This document shows, piece after piece, positions 54,704 through 58,769 of a stretch of 58,769 nt of DNA. Origin of the DNA: a bacterium (GTDB lineage Bacteria; Ratteibacteria; UBA8468; B48-G9; JAFGKM01). The notes beneath the pieces were generated by a model, which was given only the letters and a program-made list of their open reading frames with translations, searched no databases and was not told the DNA's origin. How positions within the stretch are numbered: the first letter of the stretch is position 1; the number at the start of each line of letters is the position of its first letter. The translations under genes were made by a program, and so were the position numbers. Location: NCBI GenBank assembly GCA_026414725.1, contig JAOAIL010000009.1, positions 1-58,769 of the forward strand. The letters run 5' to 3'.

Positions 54704-55639
54704 ATGTCTTTCTCACCTACTAAATTTATATCAGAGAAAGAAAAAGAACTTAAAGTTAAAATAGGCAATTCCAGAGCGATAGTAGCAACATCAGGTGGTG
54801 TTGATAGTATGACCTGTGCAATACTTGCAAAGAAGGTACTGGGTAATAATGTTGTTGTACTTTTTCTTGATGATGGACTTATGAGAGAGGGAGAACCAGA
54901 AGAAGTTAGGAAATTTTTTGAAAGTATGGGAATAAACCTTGAGGTCTGGGATGTAAAAGACAGGTTTTTTGAAGCATTGAAGGGGAAGATAGACCCCGAA
55001 GAAAAACGGATTGCTTTCAGAGATGCCTTTTATAGAACACTCGGACAGGCAGTGAAAAGTTATTCTGTGGATTTTCTTATTCAGGGGACTATTGCAGCAG
55101 ATATTGTAGAAACACAGAAAGGAATAAAAACACAGCACAATGTTTTATCTCAGATAGGACTTAATCCTTCCACTTTTGGACTGAAAGTTGTTGAACCCTT
55201 AAAGGAACTTTATAAACATCAGGTAAGGGAAGTTGCTAAAAAATTGGGATTGCCGAATAAGTTTGCAGAAAGAAGACCCTTCCCAGGACCTGGATTAGCA
55301 ACAAGGATAATAGGAGAAGTTGTTCCTGAAAAGGTAGAAAAGATAAGAAAGGCAACGAAAATAGTAGAGGAGACAATAACAGGTAAAAATGTTTTTCAAG
55401 TTCTTGTAGTTTTGCTTTCTGATAAAGCCACAGGTATAGTGAATGGTAAAAGGATATTGGGGGATATTATTGCCATTAGAGCAGTAGAGTCAAAAGATGC
55501 TCTAACAGCCAGTCCGTGTAAAATCCCATGGATGATTCTTTTCAAGGCGAGGGATAGAATTTTAAAGGAAGTTCCAGGAGTTGTAAAAGTAGTATATGAT
55601 ATAACACCCAAACCACCGAGTACGATAGAGTATATATAA
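54704..55639 (+). CDS. guaA: GMP synthetase ATPase subunit (no glutaminase domain)
   Basis: Aminates XMP to GMP. 311 residues: the PP-loop (SGGVDSM, residues 30-35) and the C-terminal GMP synthetase dimerisation domain (QHNVLSQIG, FAERRPFPGPGLATRI, LPDEI-like VVYDITPKPPSTIEYI). The class I glutaminase domain (about 190 residues), fused N-terminally in most bacteria, is absent. This is the split arrangement of archaea, where a separate GuaA-a subunit supplies ammonia. No such subunit is in the window. GGAGG precedes the ATG by 9-10 bases. A purF-like gene follows after 48 bases. Confidence 0.9.
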   Translation: MSFSPTKFISEKEKELKVKIGNSRAIVATSGGVDSMTCAILAKKVLGNNVVVLFLDDGLMREGEPEEVRKFFESMGINLEVWDVKDRFFEALKGKIDPEEKRIAFRDAFYRTLGQAVKSYSVDFLIQGTIAADIVETQKGIKTQHNVLSQIGLNPSTFGLKVVEPLKELYKHQVREVAKKLGLPNKFAERRPFPGPGLATRIIGEVVPEKVEKIRKATKIVEETITGKNVFQVLVVLLSDKATGIVNGKRILGDIIAIRAVESKDALTASPCKIPWMILFKARDRILKEVPGVVKVVYDITPKPPSTIEYI

Positions 55640-55687
55640 TAAGAGAACAGAAACATTAACATAGAGAAAATGTAATATTAAAAAGTA

Positions 55688-57016
55688 ATGAATGAAGAAA
55701 ATTGCGGTGTTTTTGGATTGTACAGAAGCGATAATAAACAGGTAGTAAAAGATTTATACTATGGGATATTTAAACTTCAGCATCGCGGTCAGAGGTATTG
55801 TGGTATAGCAACATCCTCTAATACAGATATCCATATTATTACCCATAAAGGATTTGTCCGTCATACCTTTACAGATATAGAACTTAAGTCACTGAAAGGC
55901 ACATCTGGTATAGGACATGTAAGTTTAAAGGACCGTCAGCCAGTTATATTAATATCCAGAATGGGAAAGTTTGCCATTGCTTTTAGTGGTAATATACTGA
56001 ACAGTGTAAAGTTAAGGAATCAGTTAAAAAATGAAGGGCATTCCTTCAGTAATGAGACAGATATAGAACTTATCGGTAAACTTATCTCTTACGAAAAGGA
56101 TTTTCTTAATGGTATTGTACGATTGAGCGAAAGGGTGAAAGGAGCATACAGTATTGTTATACTTACAAAAGAAGGAATATATACAGCGAGAGACCCTTAT
56201 GGTTTTAAGCCACTTATTATCGGTAAAGGGGCTGGTGCTATTGCTGTTTCTTCTGAATCCAGAGCATTTGATATTTTAGGAATGGAAGTTATCAGAGATG
56301 TTGAACCGGGTGAGGTATTATTTATAAATAAAAAAGGTATTACCACACTTACAAAGATTAAAAATTCCAGTCCTGCCTTCTGTGCTTTTGAATGGGCATA
56401 TACTGCATCTATTGATTCTATTATTGAAGGGATTCCAGTAATAAGAGCAAGAGAAAATTTTGGAAGAAGGTTAGCAGAAAAAGATGGAAAGATATCTGCT
56501 GATTTAGTTGCACCTGTTCCTTTTTCAGGTATTGGATGTGCACTTGGATATCATCATACTTCAGGACTCCCTTATGAAGAGGTCTTCCTTATAGACAGGT
56601 TTGCAAGTAGAAGTTATACACCATTAACACAGGAAAGGAGAGATGAAGAAGCACGGATTAAACTTTCTGTGATAAAGGACAATGTGAAAGGGAAAAGAAT
56701 AGTTCTTTGTGATGATTCTATTGTTAGAGGTACACAGATACAGTTTAAGGTTATGGAGTTGAAAAATGCAGGTGCAAAAGAGGTTCATGTAAGGATTGCC
56801 TGCCCTCCACTTATAGCCCCTTGTTTTTACGGTATATCTACCCGTTCTTATAAGGAACTTGCTGCAAAACGATTTTCCTTGAATGAGATAAAAGAACGGA
56901 TAGGAGCAGATAGTTTGAGATATAATACTCTTGATGACTTTATTGATGCAATAGGATTACCGGCAAATTATCTTTGTCTTTCCTGTTTTACAGGGAAACG
57001 TGTGGAGGAGAGATGA
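55688..57016 (+). CDS. purF: PurF-like amidophosphoribosyltransferase with altered glutaminase site
   Basis: First step of purine synthesis, making phosphoribosylamine. 442 residues. N-terminal NEENCGVFG keeps the nucleophile Cys6 after a short propeptide, and QHRGQ is present. The usual GHVRYxTxG glutamine-binding segment is GHVSLKDRQP (77-85): Arg is replaced by Ser and the loop is shortened. The oxyanion-hole Asn of AHNGN is Ser100 (AFSGN). The PRPP site is intact (LCDDSIVRGTQ, 340-350). The flexible loop (RFASRSYTPLTQER) is also divergent from NRYVGRTF. It is therefore a PRPP enzyme whose glutamine use is doubtful. Confidence 0.85.
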   Translation: MNEENCGVFGLYRSDNKQVVKDLYYGIFKLQHRGQRYCGIATSSNTDIHIITHKGFVRHTFTDIELKSLKGTSGIGHVSLKDRQPVILISRMGKFAIAFSGNILNSVKLRNQLKNEGHSFSNETDIELIGKLISYEKDFLNGIVRLSERVKGAYSIVILTKEGIYTARDPYGFKPLIIGKGAGAIAVSSESRAFDILGMEVIRDVEPGEVLFINKKGITTLTKIKNSSPAFCAFEWAYTASIDSIIEGIPVIRARENFGRRLAEKDGKISADLVAPVPFSGIGCALGYHHTSGLPYEEVFLIDRFASRSYTPLTQERRDEEARIKLSVIKDNVKGKRIVLCDDSIVRGTQIQFKVMELKNAGAKEVHVRIACPPLIAPCFYGISTRSYKELAAKRFSLNEIKERIGADSLRYNTLDDFIDAIGLPANYLCLSCFTGKRVEER

Positions 57017-58017
57017 AAAGTAAAGTTATACTGGAAACAGGAGATGTTTTTGAAGGAGATTTTTTTATAGAGGGAGAAATAAGTTCAGGACAAATAATTT
57101 TTGATACGAGGGTTGTTGGTTATGAGAAGGTTTTTACCAGTCCTGAATATTATGGGAAAATAGTATGTTTCACATATCCACTTATAGGGAATTATGGTAT
57201 AAATTATGAAGATTTAGAGTCAGATACATTATTCCCTTCCGGTATTATCATCTCTGAACATAGTAAGATTTATAGTAATTTCCGTGCAAAATGTTCTCTA
57301 AGGGAATTTTTATGCAATAAGAAAATTCCTGTAGTAGAAGGAGTGGATACCCAGTATATCACAGAAATAATAAGAGAGAATAAAGGGATAAAGGGAGTAA
57401 TTGCTCCTGCAGATGTGGATGAAATAGAAGTTCAGAATATATTGAAAGAAAAGAAAAGATTTTATCTTGATATAAAGAATATTGAAAAAGTAGGGGGTCC
57501 ATATATTGCTGTTGTCCATCCTGCAAAAAGGAGTGAAATAGAAATTTTAAAATCCTTGCCGTTTGGCAATAATTTATTATATGTGAGTTTTTGTTCGGAG
57601 ATTAAAGAAGTACTTAAATGTGCAGAATGGATATATCTTTCTTCTGCTTTTGAAGATGAAGAGACAATTTTCAAAACAGCAGAGATTATAAAAGGATTCA
57701 TAGGTAAGATTCCTATAATAGGTTCTGGTGCAGGTCATCTTGCACTTGCTCTTGCTATGGGTGGAGAAATAGCGAGAGAAAAAGTTAACCATTATGGGAC
57801 AAACCATCCTGTTAAAGATATGGAAAAAAACAGGAAATATATTACATCCCAGGCACACAGTTTTATAGTTAATAAAAATTCACTGATTAACAGAATAAGA
57901 TTTATTAATATTACAGACGGTTCTGTTGAAGGTATCAGTGATAGAAAAAATAAGATTCTCTCTACTACATTTACTCCAGCATTAGATATTGTAAAGGAAT
58001 TTTTTTCTTTTGTGTAA
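57013..58017 (+). CDS. carA: CarA-like carbamoyl phosphate synthetase small subunit, catalytic Cys missing
   Basis: 334 residues starting at ATG 57013 (ATGA overlap with purF, GGAGGAG upstream). The N-terminal CarA domain is intact (LETGDVFEGDFF, FTYPLIGNYGINYEDLESD, VEGVDTQYIT). In the glutaminase domain the nucleophile motif GICLGH is GSGAGH (237-242), so Cys is Gly239. The late FHPE is FTPA (320-323), so the catalytic His is Thr321 and the Glu is Ala323. NHPVKDME and ITSQAHSF remain. It cannot hydrolyse glutamine by the known mechanism but may still brace CarB. carB begins 9 bases later. Confidence 0.9.
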   Translation: MKSKVILETGDVFEGDFFIEGEISSGQIIFDTRVVGYEKVFTSPEYYGKIVCFTYPLIGNYGINYEDLESDTLFPSGIIISEHSKIYSNFRAKCSLREFLCNKKIPVVEGVDTQYITEIIRENKGIKGVIAPADVDEIEVQNILKEKKRFYLDIKNIEKVGGPYIAVVHPAKRSEIEILKSLPFGNNLLYVSFCSEIKEVLKCAEWIYLSSAFEDEETIFKTAEIIKGFIGKIPIIGSGAGHLALALAMGGEIAREKVNHYGTNHPVKDMEKNRKYITSQAHSFIVNKNSLINRIRFINITDGSVEGISDRKNKILSTTFTPALDIVKEFFSFV

Positions 58018-58026
58018 GGAGAATAA

Positions 58027-58769
58027 ATGCCTAAAAGGAAAGATATAAAAAAAGTTATAATTATTGGTTCAGGTCCTATTGTAATAGGACAGGCATGTGA
58101 GTTTGATTATTCTGGTTCTCAGGCATGTAAATCATTGAGAGAAGAAGGGTATAACATAGTTCTTGTAAATAGTAATCCTGCTACGATTATGACAGACCCT
58201 GAAATGGCTGATTCCATATACCTTGAACCACTTACTGTTGATGTTCTAACAAAAATAATTGATAAGGAAAGACCGGATGCCTTATTACCAACACTCGGAG
58301 GGCAGACAGGACTTAATCTTGCTACATTTCTTGCAAGAGAAGGTGTGCTTGAAAGGTATGGTGTTGAGGTTATAGGTGCAGATATAGAAGTAATTGCGAG
58401 GGCAGAAGACAGAGAACTTTTTAAGAAAGCAATGATTGAAATAGGACTTAAAGTCCCTGAAAGTGCACTTGCATATAATTTTGATGAGGGGCTTGAAATA
58501 GGGAAAAAGTTGGGTTTCCCCCTTGTTCTTCGTCCTGCCTATACACTTGGAGGTACAGGCGGTTCTGTTGCATATAATATAGAAGAGTTTGAGAAAAAAT
58601 TAGAATTTGCTCTGGATACAAGTCCTATCCATGAAGTCCTCCTTGAACAATCTGTTCTTGGTTGGAAAGAGATAGAGTTTGAAGTGATGAGAGATGTAGA
58701 TGATAATGTGATAATGGTTACCTCAATGGAAAATATTGACCCTATGGGGGTACATACAGGGGATAGTAT
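58027..58769 (+). CDS. carB: Carbamoyl phosphate synthetase large subunit (3' end cut by window)
   Basis: About 247 N-terminal residues of CarB, open to the last base. The start has AAGGAG 6 bases before ATG 58027. [51 protein letters not shown] and [14 protein letters not shown] are CarB signatures of the first ATP-grasp half (carboxyphosphate site). It makes carbamoyl phosphate for pyrimidine and arginine synthesis, here with a small subunit that lacks glutaminase residues, so ammonia is the likely nitrogen donor. Confidence 0.95.

Follow-up and report, generated by a model that had tools for sequence, protein, structure and literature searches.

Can a bacterium hold, beside the glutamine-dependent enzymes of purine and pyrimidine synthesis, a second set of the same enzymes that works with free ammonia? 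The question is raised by the right end of the window analysed here, which is the whole 58,769-nucleotide contig JAOAIL010000009.1 of the Ratteibacteria assembly GCA_026414725.1 (contig C9 of a 1.5-Mb metagenome-assembled genome (MAG), 96% complete, labelled G000). This end carries guaA', purF', carA' and carB', where primed names denote a glutaminase-less set and unprimed names the canonical glutamine set. A first-pass annotation had noted a guaA without glutaminase domain, a PurF-like protein that had lost the Arg of GHVRY and the oxyanion Asn, and a CarA-like protein that had lost Cys, His and Glu, and had proposed ammonia-dependent purine and pyrimidine synthesis. The window's genome was searched family by family with protein models, and the comparison set comprised 35 Ratteibacteria genomes, 16 of them at least 90% complete; all are draft MAGs, and gene absences are accordingly uncertain. 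Judging from their sequences, the primed genes probably form a second, ammonia-dependent isozyme set parallel to the glutamine-dependent set.

All three losses were borne out. GuaA' aligns only to positions 194-511 of the 512 of the PRK00074 profile, which correspond to the ATP-pyrophosphatase (ATPPase) and GMP_synt_C domains, and has no class I glutamine amidotransferase (GATase) domain. In CarA' the nucleophile Cys and the His and Glu are all replaced (Table 1). For PurF' the change goes beyond the loss of the Arg, as residues 72-79 (RYATAGGG) of Bacillus subtilis PurF (1ao0) are deleted in all 22 PurF' sequences and kept in all 15 canonical ones. This removes most of the glutamine loop, which is R73-E84 in Escherichia coli PurF (PMC7953260), including the channel Tyr. 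The oxyanion Asn is also replaced in every PurF', in the window next to H101 changed to Phe, and in 14 of the 22 Gln or His takes the place of Asp127 (B. subtilis numbering here and below). The phosphoribosyl pyrophosphate (PRPP) site is intact: DDSIVRGT is invariant, and R311, R321 and K328 are kept. The protein clears the cut-off of the purF model TIGR01134 (350 bits). Its predicted structure has a mean pLDDT (predicted local distance difference test) of 74.6, with the Ntn (N-terminal nucleophile) domain mostly at 85-92, and the best Foldseek matches are all PurF; such a model only confirms the PurF fold.

These changes are not chance, because the same ones recur in orthologues (PurF' at 61-86% identity) and, for CarA', across families, which is what the comparison of residues in close relatives suggested by the annotation brought out. 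Cys-less CarA was found in G000-G003, G008, G010, G029, G030, G032 (two copies) and G034 and in locus L140, from a MAG labelled Omnitrophota, with Gly at the nucleophile position or, in L140, Ala, and it is sometimes the sole carA found in a genome. In the tree, all Cys-less CarA that were placed lie on one side of a single branch (support 98/99), so that a single origin is possible from these sequences; the branches are long.

The four genes follow a TIGR00375 gene and lpxK in the same direction and with tight spacing, and form one translationally coupled run, in which the purF' stop and the carA' ATG share the sequence ATGA, with carB' starting 9 bases past carA'. The end of the contig truncates carB', and contig C12 of the same genome opens at the matching residue and then encodes hisH-hisF, an order also seen in the relative G008. 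The first bases of C12 (L179), just before carB' continues, hold a string that translates as MCIRDR and resembles a sequencing-adapter remnant. HisH of this run keeps the Cys, His and Glu of an intact glutaminase; the claim that all neighbouring glutamine-using enzymes had lost theirs thus stands for guaA', purF' and carA' and fails for HisH.

Table 1. Features of the glutaminase-less gene run (positions are those of the window)
Feature	Position	Strand	Evidence
guaA': single-domain GMP synthetase, 311 aa, ATPPase and dimerisation domain, no GATase	54704..55639	+	TIGR00884 2.1e-95; PRK00074
GuaA' lid-loop motif IKTQHN, followed by a 4-residue insertion	55124..55141	+	alignment; vs IK(T/S)HHN
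purF': PRPP amidotransferase paralogue, class II glutaminase predicted disabled	55688..57016	+	TIGR01134 352.9 bits; clade 100/100; dN/dS 0.093
Cys1 nucleophile codon of PurF', retained	55703..55705	+	Cys in 20/20 copies covering the position
Site of 8-residue deletion in the glutamine loop: GHV|SL vs canonical GHVRYSTTGSS	55913..55927	+	alignment
Oxyanion Asn to Ser in PurF' (FSGN vs HNGN)	55985..55987	+	N102 to S/T/A in 22/22 PurF'
PRPP-binding loop LCDDSIVRGT of PurF', intact	56705..56734	+	invariant alignment columns
carA': carbamoyl-phosphate synthetase small subunit, class I glutaminase predicted dead	57013..58017	+	PF00988 1.4e-35; PF00117 1.6e-14
CarA' nucleophile position, Cys to Gly (GSGAGH vs GICxGH)	57727..57729	+	alignment
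CarA' His-Pro-Glu to Thr-Pro-Ala (F-TPA vs F-HPE)	57973..57981	+	alignment
carB': first 247 residues of full-length carbamoyl-phosphate synthetase large subunit, truncated by contig end	58027..58769	+	continues G000:C12:21-2537

That the canonical set is absent from this genome was considered and rejected. Contig C22 carries a glutamate-synthase (GOGAT) GXGXG-domain gene, purF, carA, the N-terminal half of carB, a full-length guaA with GATase domain and pyrG; its purF has GHVRYST and HNGN intact, and its carA GICFG and QFHPE. The organism is therefore not simply ammonia-dependent, and ammonia-dependent synthesis is best read as a property of this gene set. The annotation had held that intact purF and carA and a GuaA-a subunit elsewhere in the genome would speak against its proposal; the first two are present together with the full-length guaA, and no stand-alone guaA-a was found among the seven class I GATases of the window's genome (pabA/trpG, carA, guaA, pyrG, hisH, carA' and purQ). 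The C22-type cluster extends to the remaining GOGAT parts in G001, and the glutamine cluster of G012 consists of GOGAT, purF, carA, carB1, carB2, guaA, glutamine-type nadE, amt, glnB and glnA. The glutamine-set carB of the window's genome (G000:C22:14484-16106, L098) encodes the N-terminal half only, 542 aa, and likewise in G001, G002, G004, G008 and G009; in genomes with this half, no separate C-terminal carB half was found besides that of carB'.

The primed copies are not rare paralogues, which the annotation had also named as evidence against its proposal. PurF' is present in 22 of the 35 genomes (13 of the 16 that are at least 90% complete), together with canonical PurF in 17, and GuaA' is present in 30. 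The PurF' sequences form one fully supported clade of 26, separate from the canonical copies in those genomes, and in matched genome pairs the conservation of PurF' mostly equals or exceeds that of PurF. Ratios of nonsynonymous to synonymous substitution rates (dN/dS), computed between G000 and G001, are 0.093 for purF' and 0.101 for purF, and 0.081 for guaA' and 0.083 for guaA. For carA' the ratio is 0.224 vs 0.064 for carA; this is relaxed, still below 1, and in line with a role of CarA' reduced to that of a scaffold. A reading as rare paralogues or as degenerating copies was rejected on this conservation and these ratios. The primed copies are a conserved second set and thus not unimportant, even though the simple version of the proposal was refuted.

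In some relatives the glutaminase-less forms appear to stand alone. The only PurF and GuaA types found in G032 (93% complete) are PurF' and GuaA', and its two CarA both lack the Cys; purD, purL and purQ are present. G003 and G010 likewise show glutaminase-less forms only for all three enzymes, the latter without a recognisable purD; purD is present in G003, G019 and G032. Every genome at least 90% complete (n=16) has at least one of PurF/PurF' and at least one of GuaA/GuaA'. Canonical guaA is missing in four of these 16. If the chance of missing a gene simply followed how incomplete each MAG is, this would have a probability of ~0.03; such a model is crude and the canonical genes are clustered, so it is suggestive only that this absence is real and not a result of incompleteness. 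As a side observation, locus L200 of G012 (C31, 2791-3720) encodes a third, divergent GuaA-like protein of 310 aa that has the P-loop TVSGGLDS and lacks both the lid motif and the KPPSTIE end.

Gene clustering, as read from these contigs, points to ammonia. The Omnitrophota-labelled MAG (L140) has guaA', a glutamate dehydrogenase gene (gdh), purF', carA' and carB' contiguous, and in family f4 guaA' adjoins one or two gdh genes and then glnA. A single 12-kb contig of G034 has carB'-carA'-hisF' without hisH, then purF-hisF-hisH-guaA-carB1-carA, then gdh. The two HisF genes on this contig (L197; G034:C197, 2959-3732 and 5154-5909) are 53% identical and both score above the hisF model cut-off; one lies in the glutaminase-less cluster without HisH, the other beside HisH in the glutamine cluster. 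In G028 and G032, purF' is clustered with purS/purL and gatAB. Outside Ratteibacteria the scan used two peptide patterns only, so that the distribution found there (L140 and two deltaproteobacterial MAGs) is a lower bound. In the latter, labelled Deltaproteobacteria (L141, L142), a Ratteibacteria-type PurF' adjoins carB and a canonical PurF lies elsewhere in the same genomes; lateral transfer is possible.

Under the proposed mechanism, free NH3 would be the nitrogen source of all three enzymes: PurF' would use it to aminate PRPP, GuaA' to aminate xanthosine monophosphate (XMP), and CarA'-CarB' to make carbamoyl phosphate, CarA' being a scaffold that has lost catalysis, as in vertebrate carbamoyl-phosphate synthetase (CPS) I. 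The set would operate beside the glutamine-dependent purF, carA, carB1 and guaA of the nitrogen-assimilation cluster. There are precedents for each part: E. coli PurF still works with ammonia after replacement of Cys1 (PMC3261824), ATPPase subunits of GuaA accept it in vitro when isolated (PMC10526850), and CPS I is a naturally occurring CPS that uses ammonia only (PMC6022934). On these grounds we infer free NH3 as the nitrogen donor of PurF', GuaA' and CarA'B'. A likely logic is one of supply: with plentiful ammonia the primed set, together with glutamate dehydrogenase (GDH), would save ATP and glutamine, and where ammonia is scarce the glutamine set would serve, together with glutamine synthetase (GS) and GOGAT. 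The substrate and this regulatory logic are inferred, set against directly observed sequence changes, conservation, two gene sets, clustering and purifying selection. A broader picture is offered tentatively and is on balance somewhat doubtful: two interchangeable nitrogen-donor programmes, the glutamine set tied to GS/GOGAT/Amt/PII and the ammonia set to GDH, to which one family adds a HisH-less HisF; some members would have discarded the glutamine set, leaving free ammonia as the sole nitrogen donor for GMP, phosphoribosylamine (PRA) and carbamoyl phosphate.

The ammonia reading draws its strength from three glutaminases of different type being disabled in one coupled run, and is the best one for the set given the phylum-wide conservation, the intact PRPP site, the GDH operon in one MAG and the relatives with only glutaminase-less forms. 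Several observations weigh against it. Cys1 is invariant in PurF' despite the deleted glutamine-binding loop, and a dead glutaminase would not need it. The IK(T/S)HHN lid motif has been reported as invariant in GMP synthetases and coupled to GATase activation (PMC10526850), and GuaA' alters the lid His reported to be catalytic (H388 in PfGMPS), with HFN or YYN in relatives from the same order; XMP may therefore not be the sole substrate of GuaA', and together the retained Cys1 and the altered His leave room for a different substrate or role. As the canonical genes are clustered in draft MAGs, one missing contig could hide all three. The split into a GDH and a glutamine synthetase cluster is not clean in f4, where glnA lies beside guaA', and linkage to GDH was not found in the window's own genome, where gdh is on contig C17 near accBC and outside the primed run. 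No RNA regulator of either cluster was found at Rfam gathering scores.

It is on such points that the most serious rival rests, namely that the primed proteins have other jobs: PurF' and GuaA' would convert different substrates or regulate purine synthesis, and CarA' would be a structural or regulatory subunit. Besides the invariant Cys1, the PurF'-specific invariants W240, S245, D306 and F308 set PurF' apart as a subfamily of its own with a long stem branch, GuaA' has IKTQHN in place of the usual lid, and the window's genome also encodes both canonical enzymes. We regard this as unlikely, though well worth keeping in view, since the PRPP loop and catalytic frame are intact, PurF', GuaA' and CarA' are the sole forms found in some genomes (with purD in G003, G019 and G032), purF' stands with purS and purL in G028 and G032, and three pathway-linked genes are altered in the same sense. 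A shared glutaminase acting in trans, which the annotation had named as its alternative, would let the set still use glutamine, and HisH, most likely the copy encoded downstream, is the only local candidate with its catalytic residues in place; hisH-hisF follows carB' in G000 and G008 and lies beside purF' or guaA' in G007, G017 and G019. This is improbable, as HisH has its dedicated partner HisF adjoining, the f4 primed cluster has hisF and no hisH, PurF' is without the loop that lines the ammonia channel and the GuaA' lid is remodelled. HisH is not known to dock to PurF-, CarA/B- or GuaA-type proteins in any family. That duplicates in decay or an error of assembly account for the primed copies is barely credible: carA' does evolve 3.5x faster than carA, and purF' is broken in G024 and G021 and a fragment in G007, but guaA' and purF' have dN/dS ratios of 0.08-0.09, independent MAGs carry orthologues in the same gene surroundings, and one PurF' clade spans the phylum.

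If the ammonia-dependent isozyme set is real, ammonia would be a genuine purine and pyrimidine nitrogen donor in living bacteria, with class I and class II glutaminases removed together, and these uncultured anaerobes might be expected to inhabit ammonia-rich places. The proteins would offer enzymology a natural channel-less PurF and bacterial analogues of CPS I, and a direct test of a long-open archaeal hypothesis described below. Standard models label the primed proteins 'glutamine-hydrolyzing' though the residues are gone. When glutamine amidotransferases accept free ammonia, this is usually a side reaction seen in vitro.

The individual parts have known relatives; the coordinated glutaminase-less nucleotide gene set, as a second set in bacteria, was not found described in the open-licence literature, where the closest report is that of crenarchaeal PurF'. 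For this protein, amination of PRPP with ammonia was put forward in 2011 as an untested hypothesis (Brown et al. 2011, PMC3261824). It too is a second PurF conserved beside the canonical one with glutaminase residues lost, but the archaeal Cys1 is replaced by Ala or Val, whereas the Ratteibacteria protein keeps Cys1, has lost the glutamine loop and oxyanion Asn, and is encoded in linkage with carA', carB' and guaA'. Three PurF homologues from Bathyarchaeota (L145, L146, L147), with Val for Cys1 and no GHVRY, match the published crenarchaeal type; this Val-type PurF forms a separate long branch in the tree and has the CAFEW motif in common with the Ratteibacteria PurF'. GuaA' resembles GuaAb of the archaeal two-subunit GMP synthetase, being a single-domain ATPPase of the same length whose closest solved structures are the GuaAb subunits 2dpl and 6jp9; it differs in that there is no GuaAa gene in the genome, the lid is IKTQHN and a fused GuaA coexists. 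Vertebrate mitochondrial CPS I has likewise kept the small-subunit domain without the catalytic Cys, and is an ammonia-only enzyme beside the glutamine-dependent CPS II. Unlike that single polypeptide, carA' and carB' are separate genes, the Cys to Gly change is accompanied by loss of His and Glu, and there is no sign of a urea cycle. Bacteria have other pairs of ammonia- and glutamine-using enzymes, such as AsnA/AsnB, the NH3- and glutamine-type NadE, and GDH/GOGAT. The same ammonia-or-glutamine logic would apply in Ratteibacteria, where several enzymes of nucleotide pathways are doubled as gene sets.

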